Shown: positions 41,462-56,009 of the stretch, piece by piece
Numbering within the stretch: the first letter of the stretch is position 1
Layout of the letters: each line of letters starts with the position of its first letter
The notes under the pieces: generated by a model
What the model was told of the DNA's origin: nothing
The model's input: the letters and a program-made list of their open reading frames with translations, nothing else
The model's database searches: none
Source: Oscillatoria sp. CS-180
Lineage (GTDB): Bacteria > Cyanobacteriota > Cyanobacteriia > Phormidesmidales > Phormidesmidaceae
Assembly (NCBI RefSeq): GCF_028330965.1
Contig: NZ_JAQMUB010000063.1
Location: forward strand, 1 to 64,000
Length of the DNA: 64,000 nt
Reading direction: 5' to 3'
Program-made: the position numbers and the translations under genes

Positions 41462-42337
41462 CTACTCGCTGTACCAAAAGACGTCAGCGATCGCTCCACC
41501 CATGTCCTCAAATTCCTCAATGGGATTCAGCAGCACAGTCTGTTGAGTCAGGTCCTCTCCTAAGCGCCGTTCGACACGATCAGGAATACCGTATCCATAG
41601 ATGACATGACCATTACCCGCAAGCACCACTACCTGAGTGTCTGGGTTGTCGGTTCTAAAATCAGCGATCGTCATTGCCATGGTTTCATCCCAAGTAACCT
41701 GAGCGGCAAAGAAATTATCGAAGTTGAAATTGCCGTGGCTGCCATGACTGCCGAAAGCCGCAGACACAAATTCTTGGTAGTCCGTATTGCTGGTATCAAT
41801 CTCAGAGAGAGGCGGAATGTAGCGAAAATCATCTCCCTCTAGGCTGGCAAGTCCTTCACGAGCGATCTGACGAGTAATTTCACTAGGGGCATTCAGGGCC
41901 AACACCGGCAAACCGTTCTCCTGAGCAAAGCGTAAAAAGGGGGCATAAAACTCCCACGGAAATCCCCAGCGCTCTAAATATTGCGTCTGCTCGATTAGCT
42001 CGGCTTCCGAGATTTCTCCTGCTAGGTAGCGATCAATCGCCGGTTGAAAAGGCCGTTGAAACATTTCAAGGGCGATCGCCATATCGGGATCCTCCGCATA
42101 TAGCCCCTCAATGATTTCAAGCTGAGCCGCATGGTCAGCAGCACTATCGTGCTGTTCTCCCAAATACACAACATCCGCTGATTGCAAAACCTGAAACGCA
42201 TTATCCTCAACACTACTGAGTGAAACAGGCTGCTCCAGCGCAACCCCATTATCCGCCGAGCACGCGAGCGGGCTAGTCAAAAACACCGCGCCTAGAAATG
42301 CAAAGCCAAGTCCCCATCGTCGTAGGTGTAGTGCCAT
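41462..42337 (-). CDS. ChaN-family haem-binding lipoprotein
   Basis: A 291-residue lipoprotein (signal GLGFAFLGAVFLTSPLAC, Cys at about 26). The mature protein belongs to the ChaN family (PF04187), whose characterised member in Campylobacter binds two haems between two monomers. Family blocks seen: VVYLGEQHDSAADHAAQLEII, the ALEMFQRPFQPAID stretch, and VVVLAGNGHVIYGYGIPDRV, containing the metal- or haem-binding histidines. It is placed at the periplasmic side. It lies downstream of, and in the same direction as, the cytochrome cluster; 364 bp separate it from the thioredoxin gene. A haem storage or delivery role is inference. Confidence 0.85.
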   Translation of the reverse strand: MALHLRRWGLGFAFLGAVFLTSPLACSADNGVALEQPVSLSSVEDNAFQVLQSADVVYLGEQHDSAADHAAQLEIIEGLYAEDPDMAIALEMFQRPFQPAIDRYLAGEISEAELIEQTQYLERWGFPWEFYAPFLRFAQENGLPVLALNAPSEITRQIAREGLASLEGDDFRYIPPLSEIDTSNTDYQEFVSAAFGSHGSHGNFNFDNFFAAQVTWDETMAMTIADFRTDNPDTQVVVLAGNGHVIYGYGIPDRVERRLGEDLTQQTVLLNPIEEFEDMGGAIADVFWYSE

Positions 42338-42701
42338 GGTTTGGTGGTAATCAAAAATCAGGTCGATTCACTGTGCAGTGTAAAGTGAGAGCAGCCGCGA
42401 TCGCCAATACTGCTGATGAAGAACTGTCACAGCTCATGAGTACTAAGGCTTGATGACTCAGCATACAAAAAACAACTGTAACGCCAATCGGAGTCGTAGA
42501 AAACTCAGCAAAGGCAACAAGCCCTTCAATAAGTTTCAGCAGGTGAAGGAAACGGTTCAAAATAGCCATCGCTGCAAACCCCTCTCAATAAAATTCCTTA
42601 GTGTTGCTGAATTCGGGGATGAGGTAGTCATAAGCCCTCTTCAAGCCTCTAGCGAGGGGACTTTCAAGCAATGCCAGAGTAGGAATGCGACAATCGTGTC
42701 C
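42338..42701. other. Spacer, no supported gene
   Basis: A minus-strand frame at 42351-42569 (72 codons) has a hydrophobic stretch but no ribosome site or recognisable features and is not called. No hairpin or repeat of note. Confidence 0.4.
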
Positions 42702-43205
42702 CTACAAATTCCCTAACAATTCCTGAAGCCGACCCAACAAAATTGACTTAGGCACCTTCCCTACAAACGTTTCCGCGATCGCTCCGTCACCTCTCAACAA
42801 CGCTAAATGAGGAACCCCTGTGACGTTGAACTGCTGAACCTGATGCCGCCACTGTGGATCATCAATATTCAGCATGACTCGGTTAAGCGCTGAGTCAAAC
42901 TGCTGATGCACCGAATTCAGGGCAGGCGCCATCGCCTGACAGGTCGTGCACCAGTCCGCATAGAACTCAATCAGAGTCGGCTTTCCATTCGTCATTGCGG
43001 TTTCCAAAGGCAACGCTTGCCTAGCACTCGCCCTTAGCATTACCAAATTAGAGACCGGAGAAAGGCTCTGAGTAACCGTCACGGAGCGGGTAATGGAAAA
43101 AGCCACGATCGCAAATAGGATGACGAGGGCGATCGCAAATTTTCCAACTCTGCTGGCTTCAAGCTGCTGGGGGCGGTTTTTAGATGAAAGCGGCTCGATT
43201 GTCAT
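42702..43205 (-). CDS. Membrane-anchored thioredoxin, TxlA/HCF164-like
   Basis: A 167-residue protein with an N-terminal membrane helix (FAIALVILFAIVAFSITRSV) and a periplasmic/lumenal thioredoxin domain. The redox motif is WCTTC in EFYADWCTTCQAMAP and the cis-proline is in TGVPHLALL. This is the layout of HCF164/TxlA, which passes electrons to apocytochrome cysteines during System II haem attachment. The ATG at 43205 has GGAGA upstream. Its position in the cytochrome cluster fits a role in keeping CxxCH motifs reduced for the multihaem proteins upstream. Confidence 0.9.
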   Translation of the reverse strand: MTIEPLSSKNRPQQLEASRVGKFAIALVILFAIVAFSITRSVTVTQSLSPVSNLVMLRASARQALPLETAMTNGKPTLIEFYADWCTTCQAMAPALNSVHQQFDSALNRVMLNIDDPQWRHQVQQFNVTGVPHLALLRGDGAIAETFVGKVPKSILLGRLQELLGNL

Positions 43206-43536
43206 AAGAGAACTCTCCGGTATCAAAGCATCGACAAAAAAAGGAGCGACAGTACCAGAACATCGAAAGAGCGATTGCTAAACCATGCCCACAATTCCAC
43301 GAAGAGGCAGTAGTCAATCTCACCGATTCTGGTTTATCCCTATAAAATTCCTGCGTAAATCTCACGGTGTTCCTGAGCTATCTGGGCCGAACTCAGTGGA
43401 CTGATATCGCCATCTCAGATGATCTCTAGGGATGAGAAGGCTTTTTGAATCAGGTTTTCCTGGTATCCGTTTAGCGTAGACTGGGAGACCTGCTGCGCTG
43501 GCTCCTTTTCAAGAGATTGCTATTTATGGACCGACA
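43206..43536. other. Spacer, no gene seen
   Basis: No supported gene in this 331-bp spacer between the cytochrome b-like and thioredoxin genes. Nothing stands out. Confidence 0.4.
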
Positions 43537-44277
43537 TTACTGGTAGTAATAGGCCAGAGCAATATGAAAGACGAGCATCACGGCAAACACGCAGACAAAG
43601 AAAATATGACTCGCTAGCCAGACAGCCCTTAATCCTCGAATCAGGGGACCTTTTGTGAGAACTCGGCCAGTGATGGGTAGCTTTCCAAAGGACTTCCGAG
43701 TCGACTCCACAATGCCCGTCTCTGTCCCAACGCCGACCAAAGCCGTCAAAGTGGTGGCAAAAAAGACCCATAGGAAAACCGCATTAAAATTAAGGCCATT
43801 AGCTCCTAGCGTGTGAACTAACACGACAGCAAGAAGGGCTACACCAGCAAAAATGTGAAAACTACGCCAAAAAAGGACAGAACCAGGTAGCTTGATATTG
43901 GCAATCCAGCCTCGACCTCGCTTGCGGACCGTTAGCAGCATCTCAAGCACTACAAACGCTAGGGCAACGTAGCCCGTCGCTTGCTTATATAGCTCGCCCC
44001 TCAGGAAACGGTGAAGTTCGACAGAGCGCGATCGCAACTCATCCAAGTAATAGTCACTAAACACGAAGGGCGTTAGCAACAGGGCCGTCAGCAGCGTCAG
44101 TCCAATCAGCGCTTTAAAGCTAGGTTGGATACCCTTGGACTTGGCAGGACGACGACGCTGGGGGGCGATCGCTGCCGTGACCTCAGCAGCAAGATCCGTA
44201 GAAAGAGTATCCTCAGGGCTAGAGTCTATCTGCGATTGAGGATTAAGCATGTTCCGGGAGGGGTGGGACTGGCTCAT
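43537..44277 (-). CDS. Four-histidine membrane b-type cytochrome
   Basis: A 246-residue membrane protein with an N-terminal disordered part (about 1-50) and five hydrophobic segments. Two helices each carry two histidines 14 residues apart: His141 and His155 (SFHIFAGVALLAVVLVHTLG), and His224 and His238 (ASHIFFVCVFAVMLVFHIAL). Pairs spaced like this across two helices are the classic ligands for two stacked b haems in cytochrome b, formate dehydrogenase gamma and ferric-reductase families, enough to conduct electrons across the membrane. I do not recognise a named family. It sits downstream of the c-type cytochromes on the same strand (211 bp after the DUF3365-like gene). Confidence 0.78.
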   Translation of the reverse strand: MSQSHPSRNMLNPQSQIDSSPEDTLSTDLAAEVTAAIAPQRRRPAKSKGIQPSFKALIGLTLLTALLLTPFVFSDYYLDELRSRSVELHRFLRGELYKQATGYVALAFVVLEMLLTVRKRGRGWIANIKLPGSVLFWRSFHIFAGVALLAVVLVHTLGANGLNFNAVFLWVFFATTLTALVGVGTETGIVESTRKSFGKLPITGRVLTKGPLIRGLRAVWLASHIFFVCVFAVMLVFHIALAYYYQ

Positions 44278-44488
44278 GGGTGAAATGGAAAAAACTTAAG
44301 GAATAGCCAAAAGGGTTGAAAAATAGCTCAAAGGGCTGAAATCAGATGGATTAGGCAGCCAGAGAGCCTTAGAACCATCAATTTCTACAGGACCAGAGAG
44401 GCTAGTTGCGAGGGCTATTGGCCTCTCCAGTCCGCTTCACTAGGAGACGTGAAGGGCCAGCTACATGGGTAACCAGCGATCGCTCCCC

Positions 44489-45142
44489 TTAAGCGCCCTC
44501 TAGGGGAATGTTGATGACGATGCCACCCATCACTTCGTCCATTACAAATGTCTTGTCAGGATAGCGCTCCAGGTGGACAGGGTGAGTGTTGTGACAAGAC
44601 ACGCAGGCTTCAGCCACCGCAACATCGGGATACATTGCCGAAAAGTAGGACTGACCACCAATTTCCTGATAATCCTTCACCGGTTCACCCGTCTCAATCA
44701 TGGTTTCAATAGCCACTTCCTCAAATTCACCCTTAGGCGCATGGCTGTCGTTGATATACCAGGGAGAAATCAAGTTGTAGGTAAAAAAGCCCGCTTCGTT
44801 GGCAATCTCAGACCCCAAGCGAAACATTTGCGCTGGCAGAGGAATACCGTCAGCTTGTTGCCAGCCTTCAGTTGCCTCAATGGTGAGAACACCGTCTTCC
44901 TTAGATTTACCCTCAAGGGTCTTGGAGCGGTTGACGACGTGTTTAGTGTAAGCCGTTCGGTCAGCCTCCAGAACGGTATGAATGTAATCAACTACCATTT
45001 CCGGTGCAATACCAGGCGTTGTTGTTGCCGTTGTGCCGCTACTGCTACAGGAAATAGCTGTAATAGCTACAGCCATGATGATGGCCATGAAGGCAACGGT
45101 ACGAGTCCGAATCGTACTCATCCATCGGTCTACAAGTGTCAT
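44489..45142 (-). CDS. DUF3365/Tll0287-like single-haem lipoprotein
   Basis: A 217-residue secreted protein. Signal peptide VAFMAIIMAVAITAISC with lipobox (Cys about 32). The C-terminal part has one haem c site, CVSCHNTHP, in the pattern EACVSCHNTHP, preceded by MYPDVAVA, typical of the DUF3365 (Tll0287-like) family; the Thermosynechococcus protein of that family binds haem c in a PAS-like fold and is thought to be a redox sensor. The start at 45142 is supported by GAGGAGA at 9 nt. In the cluster it could sense redox or carry electrons. Function inferred. Confidence 0.85.
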   Translation of the reverse strand: MTLVDRWMSTIRTRTVAFMAIIMAVAITAISCSSSGTTATTTPGIAPEMVVDYIHTVLEADRTAYTKHVVNRSKTLEGKSKEDGVLTIEATEGWQQADGIPLPAQMFRLGSEIANEAGFFTYNLISPWYINDSHAPKGEFEEVAIETMIETGEPVKDYQEIGGQSYFSAMYPDVAVAEACVSCHNTHPVHLERYPDKTFVMDEVMGGIVINIPLEGA

Positions 45143-45262
45143 GGAAACTAATCTCCTCTAGTGAATCATTAAACGTTGATAGGTTTGAAGGAACGTAACC
45201 GTGCTGTATCACTGTGTGATTGTGTAAGTCCGGCAATGCGAACACTGGATTTGACGATCGCC

Positions 45263-46150
45263 CTAGCTACCCTCCTGATCAGTCCGCCGCACCTCCAGCG
45301 CTCGGACCAAGTCAAAGGTTTCTAGGGATAAGGCGGGTGGGGCATCAAAGTTGGCCTCCACCAAGTCATCGTCAAAAATGCTGTTGTAGCTGTACTCCAC
45401 GCCATGGCAGTTCATGCAGACTTCTTGCACCATGCGATCGCGGGGAAGCAGCGTATAGGTATTGTTGTGGTTGACCTGTGTCACCCTATCACTGCCGACT
45501 TTCAGCTCGTGACGCGGTAAATGACAGGTCGCACAGCTGACGGATGCCGCAGACGGACGAGGGAGACTTCGGTCCGCAGCAAATAGCTCGGCATGGCGAG
45601 AGTTGGGATAGTTCAAAGAATGGGTATCACTATGACAGCCCAAACAAGAATCTACCGCCGCCTGCACCGTATTGACCGAGTGAACATCATGGCAGGTGCT
45701 GCAATTCATCTGCACATCGTGGGCGGCAACCTGCATGGGTAACCGTGCCATCGCTGGCGTCAATGGCGATGCGCCTTCTAGCTGTCGAATACCGTGCTTT
45801 CCCAAAAGGAACGTATCAACCGATTGCTCATGACAGGACTGACAGCTTTCGATTCCCGGCTGAGCCACAAACGCCTTCGTATCATCAGCCTGGTGACAGC
45901 TAGAACAGTTGACGTTGTTCAAAGCATGAGCACTGGTTTGCCAAAGCTGGGTACTTTCATCGAGCTTGGCTGGGTCAACACCACTACCCCACGCAGGTGT
46001 TGCCCATCCTAAAAGCAGCAGCATCGCCATGACGAGTGCAGCGATCGCCCGTCTCGCCTGTCTCGGGTTCCGCCAGCCCGCCGAAGCAAACCTCAAAACT
46101 CTGGACATAATCGAGACCTTTAGAGTCCGATAGCTGGCAAATAACCTCAT
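45263..46150 (-). CDS. Hexahaem c-type cytochrome
   Basis: A 295-residue secreted protein with a long N-terminal signal (VMAMLLLLGWATPAWG). Six haem c attachment motifs in order: CSSCH, CQSCH, CSTCH, CLGCH, CATCH and CMNCH. The segment SCATCHLPRHELK and VNHNNTYTLLPRDRMVQEVCMNCHG recalls the C-terminal region of octahaem HAO-like and NrfA-like enzymes, but the lysine-type active-site motif of NrfA is not seen. The start overlaps the stop of the preceding cytochrome gene as ATGA. Expected in the periplasm or thylakoid lumen. Whether it is an electron carrier or an enzyme is unknown. Confidence 0.88.
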   Translation of the reverse strand: MRLFASYRTLKVSIMSRVLRFASAGWRNPRQARRAIAALVMAMLLLLGWATPAWGSGVDPAKLDESTQLWQTSAHALNNVNCSSCHQADDTKAFVAQPGIESCQSCHEQSVDTFLLGKHGIRQLEGASPLTPAMARLPMQVAAHDVQMNCSTCHDVHSVNTVQAAVDSCLGCHSDTHSLNYPNSRHAELFAADRSLPRPSAASVSCATCHLPRHELKVGSDRVTQVNHNNTYTLLPRDRMVQEVCMNCHGVEYSYNSIFDDDLVEANFDAPPALSLETFDLVRALEVRRTDQEGS

Positions 46151-46794
46151 GCCGCACCCCCTAGAAACTCACGACTGAGGTCAGGTGCAGGCGCAGTTTC
46201 CACCTGAGTCAGAACAGTCCGCTCCGGCAACTGCTGCACAGGCAGCAGGGGGGGCTGATCCAAATTCTCCCTCAAAAATCCGGTCGAAATTGAGCGATGA
46301 TCGTGGTAATTGTGACAACCTGCCGTCCAACAGCCATCGGCAGCAAAGCCATCGTGACTCTTGAGATCACCCTGAATAATGCCTTCATGACAGGCCATAC
46401 ACAGATCAGGCTGCAAATGGACGCCCCGTCCGAACATATGCACATGCTCGTTATGACAGGTCGTGCAAGTCAGGGCTTCGACCTTCGCCAGCTCCCCGGC
46501 CCAACGCGGATCCCGAAATTTAGCAGCACCGTGCTTGTCTTCCGCCATTTCCGCCTCATGACAGCGCATACAGTTGTCGTTGCTCACAGGCTTGAAACCC
46601 TCATGGCAGGAACTACAAGAGGTTTCAAACAGGTAGTGGCCAACTGAGGTTTCCCCAGGGAGAAAAACCTGCTTGTTATCCAGAGCAAAGGCCGCCCCAA
46701 ACCAGCTCACCAGAAGGATGCAGGTCAGGGCGATCGCTGTCCTTAAATTCAGAACAGACCGCCATTTCAACGCTCGACCTCTTAACGCCATCAA
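46147..46794 (-). CDS. Multihaem c-type cytochrome with a CX4CH motif
   Basis: A 215-residue secreted protein with an N-terminal signal or anchor (LRTAIALTCILLVSWFGAAFA). Four canonical haem c motifs: CSSCH, CMRCH, CTTCH and CMACH. A fifth candidate is CWTAGCHNYH (CX4CH), a spacing known from a few multihaem proteins such as cytochrome c3-like ones. Overall pattern is cytochrome c3/NapC-like, soluble or anchored by the uncleaved signal. It begins 32 bp after the globin gene and overlaps the hexahaem gene by four bases, so the three are very probably cotranscribed. Confidence 0.88.
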   Translation of the reverse strand: MMALRGRALKWRSVLNLRTAIALTCILLVSWFGAAFALDNKQVFLPGETSVGHYLFETSCSSCHEGFKPVSNDNCMRCHEAEMAEDKHGAAKFRDPRWAGELAKVEALTCTTCHNEHVHMFGRGVHLQPDLCMACHEGIIQGDLKSHDGFAADGCWTAGCHNYHDHRSISTGFLRENLDQPPLLPVQQLPERTVLTQVETAPAPDLSREFLGGAA

Positions 46795-46826
46795 TTCTGC
46801 TCCGTACGTCTCCTAGCGTTAAAGCG

Positions 46827-47855
46827 TTAAACCAGCAGGAACAGGGCAACTAACGCGATTAATCCACCCCCGATCAAACCCGCAGCAGTTCCCGTAGTAA
46901 TGTTGCTTTCGGGGACTTCGACCGTTGCCGCTGAAGACTGGAGTTGAACCGCCGTTTCGTCATACTCAGCCCCTTCCAGCATGACAGTGGTGATTAAACC
47001 ATAAGCATCCACCCAAGCCTGCTGCGTTTCAGCGGTCCAATCCTCCTTGAGGTATTGGCCAAACGTTTTGAGCAGAGTATTGCCGACTAGGGGATAGTGC
47101 TCGGGTAGCGCACCATACTTGACGTGACGTGCTCCCAGACCCTTCAGCGCTCCTGTCAAAGCCCCCGGCTTTCTCAAGTTTTCAACGACGAAAACAAGAG
47201 ACGTCAACAGCTTGCGCCCCTGATCACTCATATCGGTGTGGGCGAAAAGGGGCTTGGCGGCAGGATAATCCGTAAATAGATTCTCGTAGAAGCTCGTCAC
47301 AAATTCATTGGCGTGGGGCTTCACTTTCTCAAAGCTCTCTTCCAGCAGCCTAACCTTCAAACCAGTGGCCTCATCGATTTCAGGTTCAGGAGAATCTAGC
47401 TGAACCTGAGTCTTGGAGTAATCAGCGCCCTCAAGCATGACCTCAGTAATCACCCCATAGGCACCTGCCCAAGCCTGCCGAGTATCAGGAGTCCATTCAT
47501 CCCCTAAATACTGCTCGAACGTTTTGAGCAAAGTATTGCCCACCAAGGGATAGTGCTCCGGTAATGCACCGTACTTCACATGACGCGCCCCTAAGCCTTT
47601 CAAAGCCCCAGCCAAGGCTTCAGGCTGCCGCAGGTTTTCTACAACAAACACCAACGACTTCAGCAATTTATTGCCCTGCTCCGTCATGTTGGAGTGAGCA
47701 AACAAGGGCTTGGCAGCGGGATAATCTGTGAACAAATTGCCGTAAAAGCTCGTCACAAATTCATTAGCCTGGGGAGCTATTTTCTCAAAACTGCTTTCTA
47801 GCAGTTCTATTTGTAAAGTCGTCTCCTGCACATCCTTCTGTACTTCAGAAACCAT
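46827..47855 (-). CDS. Tail-anchored tandem globin
   Basis: A 342-residue protein made of two flavohaemoglobin-type globin domains (about residues 12-146 and 164-298), a short linker and a C-terminal hydrophobic tail (GTAAGLIGGGLIALVALFLLV). Both domains carry the same key residues at a constant offset of 152: B10 Tyr38/Tyr190 (SFYxNLF), E7 Gln60/Gln212 (EQG/DQG) and proximal F8 His92/His244 (ARHVKYG). Tyr B10 with Gln E7 is the distal pair of flavohaemoglobins that dioxygenate NO, but the FAD/NAD(P)H reductase domain is absent. The ATG at 47855 has GGAGAATTTG upstream. It leads the minus-strand redox operon. Electron source is probably the membrane b-type cytochrome (inference). Confidence 0.9.
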   Translation of the reverse strand: MVSEVQKDVQETTLQIELLESSFEKIAPQANEFVTSFYGNLFTDYPAAKPLFAHSNMTEQGNKLLKSLVFVVENLRQPEALAGALKGLGARHVKYGALPEHYPLVGNTLLKTFEQYLGDEWTPDTRQAWAGAYGVITEVMLEGADYSKTQVQLDSPEPEIDEATGLKVRLLEESFEKVKPHANEFVTSFYENLFTDYPAAKPLFAHTDMSDQGRKLLTSLVFVVENLRKPGALTGALKGLGARHVKYGALPEHYPLVGNTLLKTFGQYLKEDWTAETQQAWVDAYGLITTVMLEGAEYDETAVQLQSSAATVEVPESNITTGTAAGLIGGGLIALVALFLLV

Positions 47856-48653
47856 CAAATTCTCCAAAATTTTTCTCACAAACACGCACATTCAAGCCCC
47901 AGAAATCGCGCTCTGACATTCGCCAGAGTTGGCGTTGAGTCAGAGTTAGCGATCTAGAAACTATTTTCAAAAAATGCTTAAGGGAAAGCTTAAGGAACAG
48001 AAATTGGTCAGCAGCACAAAAAAGAGTGCCCCAAACTTGCACCTGCCGCTGAAAACAAACAGAGGTTAAAACTAGTCTTATCGAACTAAAAGAATCGAAA
48101 TTCCTAACAAATTAGATTCTTTTAGTTGGACCTATCCAATTGATGAGAATGAGATTAGTGAAGCAAATTTTGTTTTTTTGTAGCAGGAACGACCAAATCA
48201 AAAATTGTTATTCCTATATTGCATCAAAGTCATGCAATAAACGGATTAATCAATCAGTCCAACTTGAAATAATCGACAGAATCCTTGTTGGGCAAGGATT
48301 TTACTGTTTCATAATTACTTGCGATACCCAATGAACTGCTCATGAGAAAGCCTCACTACTTGACTCTCCGCCTCTTCTTCTTCGTTATAGACACCGCTCA
48401 ACTGGCCTAATCACTTAAGTTTTGATATTAGATGTGAAGCAAAGAATAAACTTATATTTCTTTTATTATCTGCTTTCTAAAGTTGTCTAACACAAGCGAC
48501 GCCATTTTTTTAGATGTTGTTCTTGCATGGATTTAATTCGAATGATGCATGGCATGATCTTTTTAGTAGCTGCTAATACAGAAGCTTATGGGTGCCTTCG
48601 GGATTTTATAACGTTAGATTTGCATGTTCTTTGTCAGGTTAATCAGTTGACTT
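47856..48653. promoter_or_regulatory. Divergent control region of the redox island
   Basis: An AT-rich 0.8 kb spacer between the globin operon and ccs1. It contains a 13-bp perfect inverted repeat (48084-48127, listed separately) and a stem AATCCTTG (48280-48287) with CAAGGATT (48293-48300) followed by TTA. No protein-coding frame is convincing. A clear NtcA site was not found by eye. It should contain two promoters. Confidence 0.5.
48084..48127. promoter_or_regulatory. 13-bp perfect inverted repeat, possible operator
   Basis: AACTAAAAGAATC (48084-48096) and GATTCTTTTAGTT (48115-48127) with an 18-bp spacer, centred about 250 bp upstream of the globin start. It could be an operator for a dimeric regulator or an RNA hairpin in the 5' leader. 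There is no T-run for termination. Confidence 0.55.
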
Positions 48654-50447
48654 ATGGAATCTAGGCTTATTCGCTTTTTAAGTTCAATTCGATTAGCAGT
48701 TCCGTTGTTGGTCGCGATCGCACTTATCCTAGTAGGCGCGACTTTTTATGAGTCTGAAGTCGGCTCTGCAACCGTACAAAGAGACATTTACAAAAGTGCC
48801 TGGTTCGGTGCTTTGATGTTTCTCCTGGCCGTTAATTTGGGGCTTTCTACACTCAGTAGATTTCCTTGGAAGGGGCCACGAAAGCTAGGATTCGCACTGA
48901 CCCATTGGGGGTTAGTCATCATCATTGCAGGTTCAGCAGCGGTGATTCATCTCAGCACCGAAGGAATGCTGTTGGTACGGACAGACAGCGGACCTGGCAA
49001 TCAGATTCGCGTTGAGGGTGACCTCCTAGAGGTGATTGCCCCCAGGCAAACTCGGCAACAAGCCGACATCTTCATCCGACCCGATGGCTCCGTTTATCCA
49101 CACGAGTTTGCAGGATTGACTCTGCTGGGCTACAGCGAGAGCGCCATCAAGACAGTGCAGTTTGTTGATGGAGGTGCCGTTGATAATCCAGCCGTCAAGA
49201 TTCGGCTGCAGAGCGATCGCATGGGCCAAACCTTGGACCGGTGGCTGGCAGTTGCCCCCGCTGGCTACAGCCAAATGGACATCGGTCCTGCTCACCTAGA
49301 GATTTTTGCCGCCGCAACCGAGGCTGAGCGGCGGCACCTTCTCAGTCCGCCATCAGCCCCTGAAAGTCGCTACGGTGAGCTAAAAGTAGGCGATCGCGTT
49401 TTTGACATCGAGCAGACTTTAGGCCGTTCTATCGCTATCCGTCCCGACACAACCCTTGAGGTTACGAACGTCTGGCCAGATTTTCGTCTGGAAGGAGGGC
49501 AACCTGCATCGGCATCCAGTCAGTTCCACAATCCGGCGATTCAGGTCACTCTCGTCCAGGGAGAAACTCAAGAGCAGTGGTTTGTGTTTGCGAATGCCGA
49601 ATTTCCGCCAGTGCGATCGGGCAACGCCATCGACCTGACCCTGACCTACGAAGCACCCCAACAGTCGCCCACCGACTACTTCCGTATTGTGACCACACCT
49701 GATCATCACATCTTTTACGCAGCGGCTTCTTCAAAGGGGTTCAAGTCCGGTGCTTTTTCGCCTGATGAGGCTATTGCACCAGGATGGGCAGACTTTCAAA
49801 TCTCTTTGGTAGACCAACTCACTCAAGCTCAGGTCCAGCGGCAGGTTGTTCCGGTAACGCCCGTTGCTGATGGGGCGATCACCGATGCAGGATCGCCCGC
49901 CCTGCATGTGGCAATACCAGGCGGACAAGAGTTTTGGCTGCCTTGGGGAGAACCGACAACATTAGAGACTCCCACAAGCGATTACTTTGCGGCCTTTAGC
50001 CCCAAAATGATTCAGCTTCCCTTCTACGTCAAGCTGAATGACTTCATTGTGGAGCGCAATGAGGGCAGTGAATCGGTTGCCATGTGGACCAGTCAAGTTA
50101 CCCTTTTCGACCCTCAAACCGATACCGCAGTGAACCGCGCGGTCTGGATGAATCACCCAACCTGGTTCCGAGGCTGGAAGCTTGCCCAGGCATCCTGGAA
50201 TCCAGGCGATCTCCAACAATCCACCCTGCAGCTCAAACGCGAGCCTTGGTGGGTCACCGCACTCACCTGGACTGGATCTGTCCTCGTCGTTCTGGGCATT
50301 AGCACCATGTTCTATGGTCCTGGCCTGATGAAAAAACGTCGCAAATGGTCTAGAACCACAGCCCCCAACAAAGAGACCTCTGGTATAGACGCCCCTAACA
50401 TAGACGAACCCAAGACCATCCCCATCCTCGCTGTTTTCAGCAAATAG
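48654..50447 (+). CDS. ccs1: Ccs1/ResB-family cytochrome c biogenesis protein
   Basis: A 597-residue membrane protein of System II. Helices at about residues 13-31 (IRLAVPLLVAIALILVGAT), 49-66 and 79-97 (THWGLVIIIAGSAAVIHL, with a haem-handling histidine), a large periplasmic domain of about 430 residues and a C-terminal helix (VTALTWTGSVLVVLGISTMF). The opening FLSSIRLAVPLL is typical of ResB/Ccs1. It binds or shields apocytochrome while CcsA delivers haem. It is clearly larger than the cyanobacterial Ccs1 proteins I know (about 450 residues). It is the first gene on this side of the divergent spacer and likely serves the multihaem cytochromes opposite. The symbol refers to the family. Confidence 0.85.
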   Translation: MESRLIRFLSSIRLAVPLLVAIALILVGATFYESEVGSATVQRDIYKSAWFGALMFLLAVNLGLSTLSRFPWKGPRKLGFALTHWGLVIIIAGSAAVIHLSTEGMLLVRTDSGPGNQIRVEGDLLEVIAPRQTRQQADIFIRPDGSVYPHEFAGLTLLGYSESAIKTVQFVDGGAVDNPAVKIRLQSDRMGQTLDRWLAVAPAGYSQMDIGPAHLEIFAAATEAERRHLLSPPSAPESRYGELKVGDRVFDIEQTLGRSIAIRPDTTLEVTNVWPDFRLEGGQPASASSQFHNPAIQVTLVQGETQEQWFVFANAEFPPVRSGNAIDLTLTYEAPQQSPTDYFRIVTTPDHHIFYAAASSKGFKSGAFSPDEAIAPGWADFQISLVDQLTQAQVQRQVVPVTPVADGAITDAGSPALHVAIPGGQEFWLPWGEPTTLETPTSDYFAAFSPKMIQLPFYVKLNDFIVERNEGSESVAMWTSQVTLFDPQTDTAVNRAVWMNHPTWFRGWKLAQASWNPGDLQQSTLQLKREPWWVTALTWTGSVLVVLGISTMFYGPGLMKKRRKWSRTTAPNKETSGIDAPNIDEPKTIPILAVFSK

Positions 50448-50501
50448 ACCATATCGAAAATCTACCGCAGAGGACCAACCAATCGCTATGGGATAAAGCG
50501 A

Positions 50502-50586
50502 TATAGCGGCAGCATTTGAGTCAAGCACACCCTTACTCCCTGCTCCCTAGTCCCTTAAAACTTGACCAAGCTGCATAGGGCTATAT
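50502..50586. repeat. MITE-like repeat family 3, copy 2
   Basis: ATAGCGGCAGCATTTGAGTC then AAGCACACCCTTACTCCCTG, ending in AAAACTTGACCAAGCTGCAT and AGGGCTAT. Same block order as copy 1 at 41290-41378. It lies between ccs1 and ccsA, which otherwise look like one transcription unit, so it may be a recent insertion. Confidence 0.8.
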
Positions 50587-50632
50587 CCCGTTGTCCTCAT
50601 TCCTGCCCCTCTTTTTACTGTCATATCAACCT

Positions 50633-52342
50633 ATGAAACTCATCACATTTCTCATTGGTTTATGTCTGGGCTGCTTACTACTGCTCTGTCCCCTCAGCCA
50701 GTTTCAACCAGACGGATTAGACGCCCTTAGATCCCTTGCCGTCCAGCTCGACGGACGCAAAAAGCCACTCGATACCGTTGCCCAAGAAACCGTGGCTAAG
50801 ATTCACGGGTCGGCAACCTACAAAACAACCGATGGCAGCAAAGAAGATGCCCTCAGCACCTATTTGACAATGTGGTTCAACACCCGCAACTGGAACGAAG
50901 AACCCTTTGTGCTGGTGAGCTATCGTCCTCTGAAGGAAGCCGTAGGGCTAGATTTGGAACGCAAGCATTTTACTTTTCGAGAGCTGATGGAGAATCGCGA
51001 GTTGAGCGCGATCGCCGGACAAGCCCATCAAAGGGAAATAAACGAAGAGACGTTGACTCGCAATGAACGCGAAGCACTGACCATCGAAGACCGACTGAAT
51101 CTACTGTTTCAAACTGTCGGCGACAACCGCTTGCCCATCGTGCCTCATCCCAACGATATCAAAGGCAAATGGGCCGGACTGAATGACGCGACCACCCTAT
51201 ACGCCCCTGAGACCGTTGCGCCCCTGATGGCAAACTTTGCCATGATGCAGCAAACCCTGTTACAGGGTGGCGCCACCCATATTCCCATGGTGGCTTCTTT
51301 AGCGGATGGACTAAAGGAAGGATTGCGACAGCTCAGCCAGTCGATTTACCCCACCGATACGGTTCTGAATCGAGAGGTTCATTTTAATCACTTTCATCCC
51401 TTTGCTAAAGCGTGGTGGCTCTACGCGATCGCCTTCACAACCCTACTCATCAGTCAGTGGATTGCTCGCTCCCATCTCTATTGGCTATCCATAGGTCTTT
51501 TCACCACAGGCATTGCCGTCCAAAGCTATGGGTTTTTCCTCCGAATGCAGATTGCTGACCGCCCACCCGTAACAAATATGTATGAGTCGGTGGTGTGGGT
51601 TGGCTTTGGCATTGCCGCGATCGCCCTAATGCTGGAACTTCTCTCTCGCAATCGCTTCTACCTGTTAGCAGCGGCTCCTCTATCAGTCGTCTGTTTGGTG
51701 CTGGCAGATAGCCTGCCGGCAGTGCTCGACCCCAGCATTGCCCCCTTGGTTCCCGTCCTGCGAGACAACTTTTGGCTCAGCATCCACGTTCCGACGATCA
51801 CCTTGAGCTACGCCAGCTTTGCGTTGGCGCTAGGGGTTGGGCATGTGGCGATCGGCAACTATCTGTTTACCCCCCAAGCCAGCAAGCGCATCAAACTGCT
51901 GTCCCAACTCAACTACCGAGTCCTGCAAGTCGGCGTCCTGTTGCTCACCGCAGGCATCATTCTGGGCGGCATCTGGGCGCACTTTTCCTGGGGACGCTTC
52001 TGGGGCTGGGATCCAAAAGAAACCTGGGCACTCATTGCGCTGCTCTGTTATCTCGCGCCTCTGCATGGGCGTTTAGTGGGCTGGATTGGCGATTTTGGCA
52101 TTCACGTCGCCAGCATTGTGTCTTTCAACGCGGTCCTGATGGCCTGGTACGGCGTGAACTTTGTCCTGGGAACAGGACTACACAGCTACGGCTTCGGCAC
52201 GGGCGGCTCAGAACTACTGATCGCGAGTGTTGTAGGACTTGACCTGCTGATCGTATTAGTCGCTGCTGCTCGTCAATACGGCTGGTTCAAACCGTCCGAA
52301 CCACTCACCACGGCTGACAATCTTGAGAAGGTATTGCAATGA
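50633..52342 (+). CDS. ccsA: CcsA-family cytochrome c haem lyase with long N-terminal domain
   Basis: A 569-residue polytopic haem-exporting protein of System II. The C-terminal 300 residues form the multi-helix CcsA core with the haem-binding WWD-type motif (WGRFWGWDPKETWALI) and histidines flanking it (VGHVAIGNYL, APLHGRLVGWIG). The N-terminal 270 residues contain an anchor (LITFLIGLCLGCLLLLCPL) and a large external region beginning LDGRKKPLDTVAQETVAKIHG, which resembles the N-terminal part of CcsBA/CcsA proteins from Bacteroidetes and planctomycetes rather than typical cyanobacterial CcsA of about 330-350 residues. The ATG at 50633 is preferred over a TTG at 50591. Confidence 0.88.
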   Translation: MKLITFLIGLCLGCLLLLCPLSQFQPDGLDALRSLAVQLDGRKKPLDTVAQETVAKIHGSATYKTTDGSKEDALSTYLTMWFNTRNWNEEPFVLVSYRPLKEAVGLDLERKHFTFRELMENRELSAIAGQAHQREINEETLTRNEREALTIEDRLNLLFQTVGDNRLPIVPHPNDIKGKWAGLNDATTLYAPETVAPLMANFAMMQQTLLQGGATHIPMVASLADGLKEGLRQLSQSIYPTDTVLNREVHFNHFHPFAKAWWLYAIAFTTLLISQWIARSHLYWLSIGLFTTGIAVQSYGFFLRMQIADRPPVTNMYESVVWVGFGIAAIALMLELLSRNRFYLLAAAPLSVVCLVLADSLPAVLDPSIAPLVPVLRDNFWLSIHVPTITLSYASFALALGVGHVAIGNYLFTPQASKRIKLLSQLNYRVLQVGVLLLTAGIILGGIWAHFSWGRFWGWDPKETWALIALLCYLAPLHGRLVGWIGDFGIHVASIVSFNAVLMAWYGVNFVLGTGLHSYGFGTGGSELLIASVVGLDLLIVLVAAARQYGWFKPSEPLTTADNLEKVLQ

Positions 52343-52815
52343 ATCGACGTGAATTTATGAACTGGATAGGCACAGGCACTCTAGCAGCCTCGCTACCCGC
52401 CGCGATCGCGGCCTGTCAGCCAGACACAGCGTCGGTTCCCACCGATGGTCCTGCCGAAGACACCCCAGAGGCTGCTGTCGAAGTAGACTCCACACCCCGT
52501 CCAGATGGGTTTGCCGCGATCGGAACCGTTGCAGAACTGGATCAAGCAGGCTCTGTCTCCGATAAAAGCTTCCAAGGTCAGCAAGTTTTGGTTGTTCGCG
52601 ACCCTGTTGATAGTTCCGCCCTGATTGCCGTCAACTCTCTTTGCACCCATCAAGGCTGTAGTGTTGATTGGGCGGCAGGATCATTTGCTTGTCCCTGCCA
52701 CGGTTCCAGTTTCAACCCAGATGGCACCGTGGCATCCGGGCCAGCCACAGACGCCCTGGGCACCTTTGAAGCCAAAGTTGAAGACGATTTAGTCTTGGTG
52801 AAAATTGAGTCTTAA
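52339..52815 (+). CDS. Rieske 2Fe-2S lipoprotein, Tat-type signal
   Basis: A 158-residue protein with an RR motif (NRREFMNWIG) and a hydrophobic stretch ending in AAIAAC, a Tat-dependent lipoprotein signal. The mature part is a Rieske domain with both ligand loops: CTHQGC and CPCHGS, the pattern CxHxGC...CxCHGS. A linker of about 35 residues rich in Pro, Glu and Thr precedes it. The start overlaps the ccsA stop (ATGA), so they are coupled. It differs from PetC, which has a transmembrane anchor. A soluble-domain electron carrier for the nearby haem chain is likely. Confidence 0.9.
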   Translation: MNRREFMNWIGTGTLAASLPAAIAACQPDTASVPTDGPAEDTPEAAVEVDSTPRPDGFAAIGTVAELDQAGSVSDKSFQGQQVLVVRDPVDSSALIAVNSLCTHQGCSVDWAAGSFACPCHGSSFNPDGTVASGPATDALGTFEAKVEDDLVLVKIES

Positions 52816-52839
52816 ACCCATGGCGGTTCAGCTTCAGGG

Positions 52840-52912
52840 ACCTCCAGAAAAGAATTTACCGAGGGTAGGGTGTCATTAGCGCAGCGTAATTCACCATAGT
52901 CGAAGGTGCTAA
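52840..52912. repeat. Palindromic repeat family 2, copy 2
   Basis: GTAGGGTGTCATTAGCGCAG then CGTAATTCACCATAG, with preceding context CCTCCAGAAAAGAATTTACC, matches copy 1 at 37945-38011. The right arm carries two changes (TTC for TGC and ATAG for CTAG). It lies just after the Rieske gene. Confidence 0.8.
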
Positions 52913-53032
52913 GAACCCTCAGCCCTGACACCAATCAAAGTTAGTCACGAGATGCAAAGCTCAGCTTTACATCAATACTCTACATAGGACCATCGCATGA
53001 TATTCCTACAGTAGACTGCTTTGAAAGTGAAC

Positions 53033-54499
53033 ATGATCATAGACTATGAAGCTCTCAGCCTCATCTGGATTGTCCTGCCCCTATTCGTAGGGTTTGGTAT
53101 TTATCTTTTCCCCCAATTAGATCGCGTCCTGGCAATCACAGTTTCGTTAATTTCCTTGGGGTATGGGCTATGGCATGTACTCAATTCAGCGCCTGTCAGC
53201 TTACAGCTATTAGATCATTCTGGTGTCAGCTTGCTCATCGACAGTCTGAGCGGCTTCTTTATTTTGACCAATGCCGTCGTCACCCTAGCAGTCATTATTT
53301 ACTGTTGGCACAGTCAAAAAGACGCTTTCTTCTACACACAAGCCATTATCTTGCATGGCAGTGTCAACGCCGTCTTTGCCAGCGCCGACTTGATCAGCGT
53401 TTATGTCGCCTTAGAGGTTATTAGCATTGCGGTATTTCTGCTAGTTGCCTACCCTCGCACTGAGCGTTCTATTTGGGTTGGACTGCGATATTTATTTGTG
53501 AGTAATACAGCCATGCTGTTTTACCTAATCGGCGCGGTGCTGGTGTATCAAGCTAGTAATTCGTTCGCTTTTGAGGAATTAGCAAAAGCGCCCACCGATG
53601 CGATCGCACTCATTTTTCTGGGCCTTTTGGCTAAAGGCGGTATTTTCGTCTCAGGGCTATGGTTGCCCCTGACCCATTCCGAATCGGAAACACCCATATC
53701 CGCCCTGCTGTCGGGTGTCGTCGTCAAAGCAGGGGTCTTTCCCCTAGTCCGATTTGCACTCATGGTCCCCGAGGTCGATCCTATTGTGCGCTTTTTTGGG
53801 GTGGCAACAGCGGTTTTAGGTGTTAGCTATGCGGTCTTTGACAAAGATACGAAGCGTATTCTAGCCTTTCATACCGTCTCGCAGATTGGGTTCATTTTGG
53901 CCGCACCCGCTGTCGGCGGCTTTTATGCGCTCACTCACGGTTTGGTGAAATCAGCCTTGTTTCTGATTGCAGGCAACCTGTCAAGCCGCGACATCAAAGT
54001 CCTGAAACAAAATCCGATACCGCTTCCCATTTGGATAACGCTAGCGATCGCCAGTTTTTCCATCTCAGGTTTTCCACTCCTGGCCGGATTTGGCGCTAAA
54101 GTGCTCACCTCAAAAAATCTTGTCCCGTGGCAAGTAGTTGGCATGAACATCGCCGCGTTGGGAACAGCCATTTCATTCGCCAAGTTTATTTTTCTGCCTC
54201 GCACCTCAAATCTTCCCGATAACACGGTCAAAAAAGGGTTTTGGCCAGCTCTGGTGCTGCTATTGAGTGGACTCGTGCTGGCTAATAGTCTTTACTATGA
54301 AGCCTATAGCTTAAGTAACATCATCAAACCCCTCGCCACCATTGCAGCAGGGTGGCTAGCGTATCTCCTGATTTTTCAAAAGGTATCAGTCAAAATACCC
54401 CGTGTAGTCGAGCAATTCGATCATCTAATCGGCACCATGAGCCTAACGCTGCTCCTCCTGTTTTGGATGGTCCTACGTGAGTGGAGGCTGCTCTACTAG
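53033..54499 (+). CDS. MrpD/NdhD-like proton-translocating membrane protein
   Basis: A 488-residue protein with about fourteen hydrophobic helices, of the antiporter-like family shared by MrpA/MrpD and complex I subunits NdhB/D/F. The helix-lining features are seen: ISVYVALEVISIAVFLLVAYP with the conserved glutamate, GLLAKGGIFVSGLWLPLTHSESETPISALLSGVVVKAGVFPLVRF with the lysine and histidine, and DTKRILAFHTVSQIGFILAAPAVGG. No other mrp or ndh genes are nearby, so it is an orphan. The ATG at 53033 is preferred over upstream TTG/GTG. It may couple the redox chain to proton or sodium movement (inference). Confidence 0.82.
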   Translation: MIIDYEALSLIWIVLPLFVGFGIYLFPQLDRVLAITVSLISLGYGLWHVLNSAPVSLQLLDHSGVSLLIDSLSGFFILTNAVVTLAVIIYCWHSQKDAFFYTQAIILHGSVNAVFASADLISVYVALEVISIAVFLLVAYPRTERSIWVGLRYLFVSNTAMLFYLIGAVLVYQASNSFAFEELAKAPTDAIALIFLGLLAKGGIFVSGLWLPLTHSESETPISALLSGVVVKAGVFPLVRFALMVPEVDPIVRFFGVATAVLGVSYAVFDKDTKRILAFHTVSQIGFILAAPAVGGFYALTHGLVKSALFLIAGNLSSRDIKVLKQNPIPLPIWITLAIASFSISGFPLLAGFGAKVLTSKNLVPWQVVGMNIAALGTAISFAKFIFLPRTSNLPDNTVKKGFWPALVLLLSGLVLANSLYYEAYSLSNIIKPLATIAAGWLAYLLIFQKVSVKIPRVVEQFDHLIGTMSLTLLLLFWMVLREWRLLY

Positions 54500-54722: not shown

Positions 54723-56009
54723 ATGCCCCTAGACCAAGATCGGTTCTGGAAAGCGTTTAATCCATCAAAGCCACTCAATATCGCCGATGCTGAAGATTTG
54801 AGATACTACATTGACTTCTCAGACGTTCGGGGGGGAAATGTCACTCGACAATTGGCCAGAACAATTGAGCGATTGAAAGATAGCCCCACCTGTCAACTAT
54901 TCACAGGTCATATTGGGTGTGGCAAATCAACAGAGCTACTGTGCCTCAAAAACCATCTCACGAAGGAAGGGTTTCACGTCGTTTTTTTCGAATCTAGCGA
55001 CGAAATGGACCTCAACGACGTGGATGTGACTGATATTTTGATTGCGATCGCCCGTCAGGTCAGCGCCAGCCTAGAGTCTATTAATATTTCCCTTAAACCG
55101 AATTACTTCGTTAGCTTATTCAAAGAAGTCAGTGAGATCCTTAAAACCCCTATTGAAATTAGCAACGTTCAGTTTTCGGTGGGACTCGCTAGCGTTGCGG
55201 CCAGCACAAAAGATAGTCCAGAGCTGCGGCGGCAAATGCGGCAGATTATGGAACCCCGCACCAACAGTATTTTAGAGTCCATCAATCTAGAGCTTCTGGG
55301 GCCAGCAGAAAAAGTACTAAAGCAAAAGGGATACAAAGGTCTAGTGGTTCTCATCGACAACCTAGACCGTCTTGATAACACCCAAAAAGCGGGCAAACCC
55401 CAGTCAGCTTATCTGTTCGTAGACCGAGGAGAACAACTGCGACGGCTGAATTGTCACGTCGTCTACACGATTCCCATCGTGCTGGTGTTTTCTAATGAAG
55501 TGAACCCATTAGCCAATCGCTTCGGCATTGACCCCCAGGTCTTGCCCATGGTGATCGTGCGCTACTCCGACGAAAGGATTTGCGATTCGGGGCTGAATCT
55601 GCTGCGCCAGGTGATATTGGCGCGATCGTTTCCTACGCTCGCTTCATCAGACCGCTTAGCCAAGGTCGAAGAAGTGTTTGAAGATTTAGAAACGCTCGAT
55701 CAGCTATGCCTTGCGAGCGGTGGACATGTCCGCAACCTGTTGAAACTAGGGTTTAGCTGCTTACAGCGTATGGATCCCCCCTTCTCACGTCAGTGTGTTG
55801 AGCGCGTCATTCGACAACGACGCAACGAACTGCTGCGGGCAATTACTCCTGACGAGATGACGCTATTGCGGCAAGTCAAGCAAAAAAAGACAGTGCGGGG
55901 TGAGGCGAGTTACGAAGTTTTGCTGAAAAGCATGTTCGTTTTCGAGTACCGCAGTGATGATTACGGTCACTGGTTTGACGTAAATCCGATTCTCTATGGC
56001 GACCTCTAA
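54723..56009 (+). CDS. P-loop ATPase, partner of the STAND-WD40 protein
   Basis: A 428-residue NTPase. Walker A GHIGCGKST at residues 62-70 and Walker B LVVLIDNLDRLD with Asp212. After an N-terminal FNPSKPLNIADAEDLRYYIDF, typical of a cyanobacterial STAND-like ATPase group, the rest has an ATPase alpha-helical layout and a short C-terminal winged-helix-like region (LRRQVKQKK, FEYRSDDYGHWFDVNPIL). Its stop overlaps the start of the next gene by 14 bp, so the two are translated together. The pair may form a signalling or defence module. Function unknown. Confidence 0.8.
   Translation: MPLDQDRFWKAFNPSKPLNIADAEDLRYYIDFSDVRGGNVTRQLARTIERLKDSPTCQLFTGHIGCGKSTELLCLKNHLTKEGFHVVFFESSDEMDLNDVDVTDILIAIARQVSASLESINISLKPNYFVSLFKEVSEILKTPIEISNVQFSVGLASVAASTKDSPELRRQMRQIMEPRTNSILESINLELLGPAEKVLKQKGYKGLVVLIDNLDRLDNTQKAGKPQSAYLFVDRGEQLRRLNCHVVYTIPIVLVFSNEVNPLANRFGIDPQVLPMVIVRYSDERICDSGLNLLRQVILARSFPTLASSDRLAKVEEVFEDLETLDQLCLASGGHVRNLLKLGFSCLQRMDPPFSRQCVERVIRQRRNELLRAITPDEMTLLRQVKQKKTVRGEASYEVLLKSMFVFEYRSDDYGHWFDVNPILYGDL

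Follow-up and report, generated by a model that had tools for sequence, protein, structure and literature searches.

System II, a route of haem attachment to c-type cytochromes, is built from Ccs1/ResB, CcsA and a thioredoxin-like protein of the HCF164, TxlA or ResA kind. Some bacterial haem lyases are dedicated to atypical haem sites; according to PMC6976685, NrfEFG and NrfI serve CXXCK, CcsA1 serves CX15CH and SirEFG serves the SirA site, and in these systems paralogous synthase genes stand beside the multihaem cytochrome that carries the atypical site. The same arrangement is found in a redox gene cassette of the cyanobacterium Oscillatoria sp. CS-180, which is the subject of this work. The cassette spans positions 42351-52815 of a stretch of 64,000 nucleotides (contig NZ_JAQMUB010000063.1, positions 1 to 64,000; here called the window), part of a 6.5 Mb genome in 102 contigs (G000:C3; G, C, L and f numbers are our labels for genomes, contigs, loci and families). 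Its atypical site is CX4CH, in contrast to the CXXCK or CX15CH of the NrfEFG, NrfI and CcsA1 systems. With ordinary System II it shares ResB and CcsA, both over their Pfam cut-offs, and a nearby membrane thioredoxin; it differs in that its ResB and CcsA are a second pair in the host and in that its CcsA is long and falls below the TIGR03144 cut-off.

Other described systems share further parts with the cassette. MtrCAB conduits and CbcL-type chains likewise combine multihaem cytochromes c with a dihaem cytochrome b, and the cassette has a borderline match to the MtrC/MtrF domain; however, an MtrB-type porin was not found in the host, and the globin, the sCache_heme protein and the System II genes are not known to belong to those systems. 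Single-domain and flavohaemoglobin-class globins (3s1i, 3ubc, 3wfw, VHb and Hmp) are the best solved relatives of the cassette globin and share its Tyr/Gln/His set, whereas the cassette globin has one to three tandem domains, a hydrophobic tail and no FAD/NAD reductase. Stand-alone Tll0287/sCache_heme proteins (PF11845) have the domain, the CXXCH motif and the stand-alone build in common with the cassette protein; four of these homologues carry VC(K/R/A)P, while the cassette protein lacks a Cys at that place and belongs to a fixed gene set. In a 2026 preprint (PMC12889525) the sCache_heme domain is placed in about 30% of Cyanobacteriota genomes, its signalling members are said to bind NO, and its stand-alone Cys/His-ligated members are described as looking redox-related. 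HAO and Hcp genes of mats are treated in PMC8940962, in passages that do not deal with this cassette. The single parts of the cassette belong to known families or resemble them, and the whole is related to chains of membrane cytochrome b and multihaem cytochrome c. No description of the gene set, its fixed linkage or its link between globin and multihaem cytochromes was found in searches of an open-access library, in keeping with a first-pass annotation of the window, which knew of no cyanobacterial system of such composition.

The cassette, about nine neighbouring genes in all, is made up of two divergent gene groups around a 762-bp intergenic region. The minus-strand group is transcribed in the order globin, pentahaem cytochrome, hexahaem cytochrome, sCache_heme protein, cytochrome b, thioredoxin and a 72-aa protein, followed by ChaN; the plus-strand group reads ResB/Ccs1, long CcsA and Rieske lipoprotein, followed by an Mrp-like gene. 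Judged by coordinates, the genes for the two multihaem cytochromes share 4 bases, as do the long CcsA and Rieske genes, a pattern seen in co-transcribed genes. All genes named in the first-pass annotation were located where it had placed them, and its observation of a haem and redox island is confirmed and strengthened by comparison among genomes.

Loci with a hexahaem open reading frame (ORF) were annotated in 44 cases: 36 from surveyed genomes, seven from a contig scan, and the window itself. The contig scan had given 17 loci, of which nine duplicated survey loci, one lacked the hexahaem gene and seven were kept. Of these, 23 are complete loci, the window included, having 5.5 kb or more of sequence to each side. 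The five core genes, for the globin, the two multihaem cytochromes, the sCache_heme protein and cytochrome b, are present in 23/23 complete loci, and the thioredoxin in 21/23 (absent from L075 and L077). ResB and CcsA are each found in 21 of the 23, and the Rieske gene in 17 by ORF, with L059 an 18th by tblastn. The ResB-CcsA wing is placed divergently, in parallel upstream (L075, L077, L080 and L085), beyond ChaN (L071, L083 and L086) or directly downstream (L088), so its orientation and side vary between loci while its linkage to the cassette is kept.

The cassette was surveyed in 388 genomes of the cyanobacterial class, covering 159 genera. A hexahaem search found carriers in 37 genomes from 18 genera and seven families, with conserved gene order, which removes the possibility that the synteny is peculiar to one genome. 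A profile search found the cytochrome b in 36 genomes, 35 of them also hexahaem carriers. The long CcsA was matched at 36 places in 35 genomes at E<1e-200, and 33 of the 35 also carry the hexahaem gene. The cassette CcsA stands clear of the general CcsA: after these places the matches drop to 3e-27, for a fragment of the cassette gene in G202, and to 8e-27 and weaker for general genes. Co-occurrence of the hexahaem gene with cytochrome b and with the long CcsA gave Fisher p values of about 3e-46 and 5e-41, uncorrected for relatedness. The cassette genes therefore co-occur and stay linked, and an independent distribution among relatives, which would have spoken against a functional unit, was not observed.

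Fragmented genomes, loci cut by contig ends and a single decayed copy account for the mismatches in presence and absence. In the two genomes with hexahaem and no cytochrome b (G362 and G235) the locus sits on a contig of about 3.1 kb, which stops before cytochrome b would be reached. One genome with the long CcsA and no hexahaem gene (G188) has a contig that stops inside the globin gene. Four genomes carry the hexahaem gene without a full-length long CcsA; three are fragmented (G344, G210 and G386, with 1050, 380 and 610 contigs) and the fourth, G202, shows part of the gene where a contig stops. G150, which has cytochrome b and long CcsA without hexahaem, holds a decayed cassette copy (L092), where globin, pentahaem, hexahaem and sCache_heme genes gave no match in the fetched 19.5 kb. 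In this copy a pentapeptide-repeat gene and the cytochrome b gene are each split by ORFs that resemble transposases by eye.

Named carriers from the contig scan include Halomicronema, Leptolyngbya, Geitlerinema sp. BBD 1991-9, Spirulina, Prochloron didemni, Coleofasciculus and a Pleurocapsales strain. The scan used patterns from cytochrome b alone and all 17 of its matches were cyanobacterial, so it is a weak probe of other phyla. The hexahaem protein had no match in plasmid records. The long CcsA had just three there at a coverage of at least 80%, CcsA proteins of Emticicia, Prevotella and Parabacteroides (phylum Bacteroidota) with 27-28% identity. A tree of four concatenated proteins from 42 loci groups the f11 loci and mostly follows genera; f1 and f26 are not monophyletic in it, and G168 (f26) is placed among f1 loci. 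This midpoint-rooted tree, made without a host tree, weakly suggests that the cassette is old, largely inherited, often lost and sometimes transferred.

The two multihaem cytochromes contain eleven haem c sites. An exact motif count gave six CXXCH in the hexahaem protein. The pentahaem family has four CXXCH and one CX4CH in 39/40 sequences, the remaining one (L050) being cut at a contig end and showing three and one; the CX4CH site is present in 40/40. The earlier label "pentahaem-like" is borne out, with one of the five sites atypical. Twelve histidines are invariant in 33 hexahaem sequences, six within CXXCH and six that could serve as distal ligands. For the pentahaem protein, ten stay invariant across 22 sequences; half of these belong to haem sites, half lie elsewhere, and two more are nearly invariant. 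The multihaem model PF14537 matches both cytochromes (43.4 and 28.4 bits), and a comparison of the pentahaem protein with PDB profiles gave nothing convincing. The number of conserved histidines fits bis-His ligation of all eleven sites, and both proteins are therefore taken as probable electron carriers, wires rather than enzymes.

The membrane cytochrome had been described as a four-histidine b-type protein, and this description holds: four histidines, two per helix at HX13H spacing, are invariant in 34 sequences. Loop charges (K/R, D/E) are 5 and 0 between segments 2 and 3, and 7 and 2 between segments 4 and 5, with none between segments 3 and 4 or at the C-terminus; the N-terminus has 6 and 5 and the loop between segments 1 and 2 has 4 and 4. 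The five hydrophobic segments and these charges point to an N-terminus on the inside, which predicts that H141 and H224 are on the cytoplasmic side of the membrane and that H155 and H238 are on the outer side. The AlphaFold2 model has a pLDDT of 80. The protein's match to DUF4405 in Pfam scored 17.0 bits, below the cut-off of 26.7. Foldseek gave no match at E<=0.001, PDB profiles gave nothing convincing, and in a VIA comparison b561 (Z 7.9) and b6 (Z 7.8) fell within helix-bundle noise, with talin and other helix bundles above any haem protein.

Cassette globins have one to three domains, and that of the window has two. TyrB10 is present in 68/73 domains, GlnE7 in 70/73 and HisF8 in 72/73, in a numbering based on a ruler sequence. 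The departures come from four second globins and from a single domain truncated at a contig end. These second globins (L057, L058, L059 and L091) are single-domain proteins with a C-terminal extension, encoded between cytochrome b and thioredoxin; His stands at B10 in all four and Met at E7 in two. The sole hydrophobic segment of the window globin is C-terminal (336-354), so the protein is presumably tail-anchored with its domains inside. Such a tail occurs in 31/36 first-globin ORFs. No FAD/NAD reductase domain was found in the cassette globin, where Pfam matches over the cut-off are globin only, followed by the hydrophobic tail. Elsewhere in the host (G000:C7:49351-50775) an NO synthase oxygenase domain adjoins a globin domain in one open frame of 1468 aa; the solved NO synthase 9q05 also has 1468 residues.

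The sCache_heme protein matches PF11845 with 65.2 bits against a cut-off of 24.1, and its lipobox Cys and CXXCH are present in all 43 aligned sequences. These account for every Cys of the window protein, so the Cys common to four stand-alone homologues of other genomes, which is taken as axial, is missing; conserved candidate ligands are His68 and Met106. Longer homologues, presumably signalling proteins, likewise lack that Cys. Judged by these residues, the cassette protein is a third variety, stand-alone in build yet devoid of the stand-alone Cys. The host encodes two further PF11845 proteins, and searches of the cassette protein against PDB profiles and with phmmer gave nothing convincing. 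In the Rieske lipoprotein Cys102, His104, Cys107, Cys118, Cys120, His121 and the lipobox Cys26 are invariant in 19 sequences. The thioredoxin keeps both Cys in 36/36 aligned sequences and has one hydrophobic segment. Of its earlier description as TxlA-like, a membrane-anchored WCTTC thioredoxin is supported and TxlA-type identity is not, the slr1796 thylakoid model reaching 26.8 where its cut-off is 140. The gene for the 72-aa protein, which lies downstream of that for the thioredoxin, was overlooked in the first-pass annotation and is shorter than the 80-aa limit of our own ORF list. It forms a cluster in 18 further loci and had no Pfam match at E<=0.01 for the single relative tested.

The claim that the island has its own c-type maturation genes is supported. 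Apart from the cassette pair, the host encodes a single further ResB (G000:C92) and a single further CcsA (G000:C75), each a better Pfam match than the cassette gene; the cassette ResB scores 55.1 bits with PF05140 (cut-off 24.6) and the cassette CcsA 109.2 bits with PF01578 (cut-off 29.9). Against the CcsB equivalog model TIGR03144 the cassette CcsA reaches 153.9 bits, under the cut-off of 187.6, and is thus regarded as a divergent paralogue and not filed as an equivalog. A tryptophan-rich region of the WWD type (W462-W479) and H399, H464 and H531 are invariant in 26 sequences. The invariant CX4CH site may explain a dedicated haem lyase; by analogy with the precedents elsewhere, a lyase for this site is a reasonable suggestion.

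In the divergent promoter the inverted repeat GCAT-N7-ATGC (48221-48235) stands beside a conserved TTTTTTGT element. It occurs in 6/17 intergenic regions examined, those of the window and five close relatives, and may be an operator. It appeared in 0.65% of 2000 mononucleotide shuffles of the region and is present at two other places in the 64-kb window. In another clade the corresponding place is occupied by other conserved blocks, and known regulator motifs gave only scattered matches in the divergent promoter.

The features are listed in Table 1. The divergent redox composition attributed to the island is upheld, with amendments. The Mrp-like gene is excluded because it was not seen next to the cassette in the fetched loci; L046 alone gave matches, a pair of genes with 27-28% identity that lie some 7 kb away from cytochrome b. 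ChaN, present in just 9/23 complete loci, is an optional neighbour rather than a core gene. A pentapeptide-repeat protein of about 308 aa (for example L056:13883-14803 and relatives) lies beside the cassette in 15/23 complete loci, by a strict N-terminal pattern that misses similar ORFs in L083, L085 and L086. It is not counted as a part because the window's genome has no close copy, the best host match being 42% over 150 residues. Further along the window, positions 54723-61221 encode a 428-aa protein with weak AAA-ATPase matches and then a 1741-aa protein that is ATPase- and WD40-like by eye, both unrelated to the cassette.

Table 1. Positions of the cassette genes, the divergent promoter and neighbouring genes in the window
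Feature	Position	Strand	Evidence
ChaN-like (Tiki superfamily) haem-binding lipoprotein, optional neighbour	41462..42337	-	PF04187 241.9 bits; 9/23 complete loci
Hydrophobic small protein, 72 aa, conserved	42351..42569	-	profile from 18 relatives, 107 bits
Membrane-anchored thioredoxin (WCTTC), candidate apocytochrome reductant	42702..43226	-	PF00085 61.9 bits
Five-segment membrane cytochrome b, predicted dihaem	43537..44277	-	H141/H155 and H224/H238, two HX13H pairs
sCache_heme (Tll0287-like/DUF3365) monohaem lipoprotein	44489..45142	-	PF11845 65.2 bits
Hexahaem cytochrome c, N-terminal signal-like segment	45263..46150	-	6 CXXCH, 12 invariant His
Pentahaem cytochrome c, N-terminal hydrophobic segment	46147..46794	-	4 CXXCH and 1 CX4CH, 10 invariant His
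Tandem two-domain globin, flavohaemoglobin class, C-terminal hydrophobic tail	46827..47891	-	PF00042 140.6 bits, 2 stretches
Divergent promoter region with candidate operator	47892..48653	.	inverted repeat GCAT-N7-ATGC, 48221-48235
Ccs1/ResB paralogue	48654..50447	+	PF05140 55.1 bits; 21/23 complete loci
Long CcsA, cytochrome c synthase paralogue, 583 aa, N-terminal extension	50591..52342	+	PF01578 109.2 bits
Rieske [2Fe-2S] lipoprotein, RR signal, frequent accessory	52339..52815	+	PF00355 49.1 bits
Mrp-like gene, outside the cassette	53021-54499	+	PF00361 130.7 bits

The preferred reading, to which we give a probability of about 0.42, is that this is an old, co-inherited cassette for a haem wire across an energy-converting membrane, tied to the globin. 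At the level of sequence it is based on the conserved gene set and order, on export signals in the proteins that carry the eleven multihaem c sites and the single sCache haem site, on the two His pairs of cytochrome b and on the second Ccs1/CcsA pair with its thioredoxin, together with a globin that has no export signal and mostly has a C-terminal hydrophobic tail. The sCache_heme protein, both multihaem cytochromes and perhaps the Rieske protein would lie outside, the dihaem cytochrome b in the membrane and the globin inside. Cytochrome b would pass electrons between the c haems and the cytoplasmic face, where the tail-anchored globin would offer the clearest open site for O2 or NO. Because the multihaem sites appear closed and the globin site open, O2 or NO chemistry would most likely take place at the globin; since the globin has no reductase domain, the wire would most likely re-reduce it, or drain it, with NO dioxygenation or O2 reduction as the likeliest chemistry. 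The dedicated Ccs1-CcsA-thioredoxin set would mature the cassette cytochromes, above all the CX4CH site, by analogy with the dedicated lyases. Of the dedicated transmembrane electron chain proposed in the first-pass annotation, the analysis supports a redox island equipped with System II genes of its own, whereas neither the Mrp-like member nor exchange with the exterior gained support.

Several observations weigh against this reading. The hydrophobic tail is absent from 5/36 first-globin ORFs (L049, L065, L067, L085 and L087), and the proposal that electrons pass from one to the other of globin and cytochrome b draws solely on topology and gene neighbourhood. Cytochrome b has no significant family or fold match in Pfam, Foldseek or VIA. 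Bis-His ligation is read from conservation, and the AlphaFold2 model of the hexahaem protein (pLDDT 50) is too poor to probe it. ResB and CcsA are both missing from the fetched flanks of L046 and L047. CX4CH sites are matured by the general machinery in some bacteria, and the site need not, therefore, explain a second CcsA. NO synthase shows no association with the cassette (2/37 cassette genomes and 16/351 others, one of the 16 below the family cut-off; Fisher p 0.69), which leads us to reject a link to endogenous NO synthesis. Hcp shows a weak association (7/37 and 32/351; Fisher p 0.08), and a strong Hcp link is likewise rejected. The nitrogen-oxide role proposed earlier is compatible with the open globin site with its Tyr/Gln pair and with an sCache_heme protein that lacks the stand-alone Cys, and is left without an NO synthase association and with only the weak one to Hcp.

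Not far behind the globin-chemistry reading, and rather unlikely in itself, is a quinol-fed outward outlet in which plastoquinol would reduce cytochrome b, the penta- and hexahaem proteins would carry electrons to a periplasmic or external acceptor, and the globin would only buffer or sense O2 or NO. The pairing of a dihaem cytochrome b with bis-His multihaem c resembles known quinol-to-multihaem chains of the CbcL type. The hexahaem protein just passes the MtrC/MtrF model PF22113 (31.4 bits, cut-off 30), and its best NCBIfam match is the DmsE decahaem family, far below the cut-off (40.1 against 192.2 bits). Carriers such as Halomicronema, Geitlerinema BBD, Coleofasciculus and Prochloron include many that are benthic, mat-forming or symbiotic, and outlets could help such organisms. 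The outlet is opposed by the DUF4405 match of cytochrome b, which lies below the cut-off, and by the failure to identify a quinone site. The MtrB route is rejected as the host has no MtrB/PioB porin match (PF11854), with the limit that control genomes also had none over the cut-off and a different porin is possible. No second Paired_CXXCH protein was matched in the host by a model that is insensitive and also misses the pentahaem protein. A 2019 review (PMC6899825) reports no evidence for multihaem cytochromes c at the cyanobacterial surface. No outer-membrane component was recognised in the cassette, and the earlier idea of electron exchange with the exterior is not supported, though the marginal pass of the MtrC/MtrF model speaks for it.

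A nitrogen-oxide or redox sensing module, in which sCache_heme and globin would bind NO and the rest relay the signal or detoxify, is improbable. It draws on the NO binding of signalling sCache_heme domains (PMC12889525), on the absence from the cassette protein of the stand-alone Cys, as in the longer, presumably signalling homologues, and on the candidate operator. Against it, the cassette conserves neither an output domain for signalling nor a regulator, a LysR-like gene being near 6 loci only; the same preprint gives stand-alone sCache_heme a redox role, and the NO synthase and Hcp counts point the same way. More improbable still is a multihaem nitrite, hydroxylamine or sulfite-type reductase with accessory genes. 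The hexahaem protein has weak profile similarity, at E 5e-8, to an entry called "similar to hydroxylamine oxidoreductase" and, at E 2e-4 and weaker, to entries for NrfA and octahaem nitrite reductase, but the matched stretches are short or confined to CXXCH-rich parts. The active-site motif of NrfA- or MccA-type enzymes, CXXCK or CX15CH, is absent from both cytochromes; aligned hexahaem and pentahaem sequences have no CXXCK, their haem motifs being CXXCH and the one CX4CH, and the conserved histidines suffice for every haem. That ordinary haem genes lie together here by chance or only locally, an idea for which one can point to ChaN and the Mrp-like gene as mere neighbours, is hardly credible in view of co-occurrence and synteny across seven families.

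If the preferred reading is extended, the cassette may represent a new respiratory or protective module of oxygenic phototrophs, in which outside multihaem cytochromes would be wired to O2 or NO chemistry at a tethered cytoplasmic globin, with haem-attachment machinery of its own for CX4CH; this extension is doubtful, and its boldest form would be a native multihaem electron gateway to the surroundings. Photocurrent research still asks how electrons leave cyanobacterial cells, and the cassette is a testable candidate for trans-membrane electron exchange or for defence against NO and O2. Carried by about one in ten of the sampled cyanobacteria, it is also a natural example of cytochrome genes that stay in the company of maturation genes of their own.

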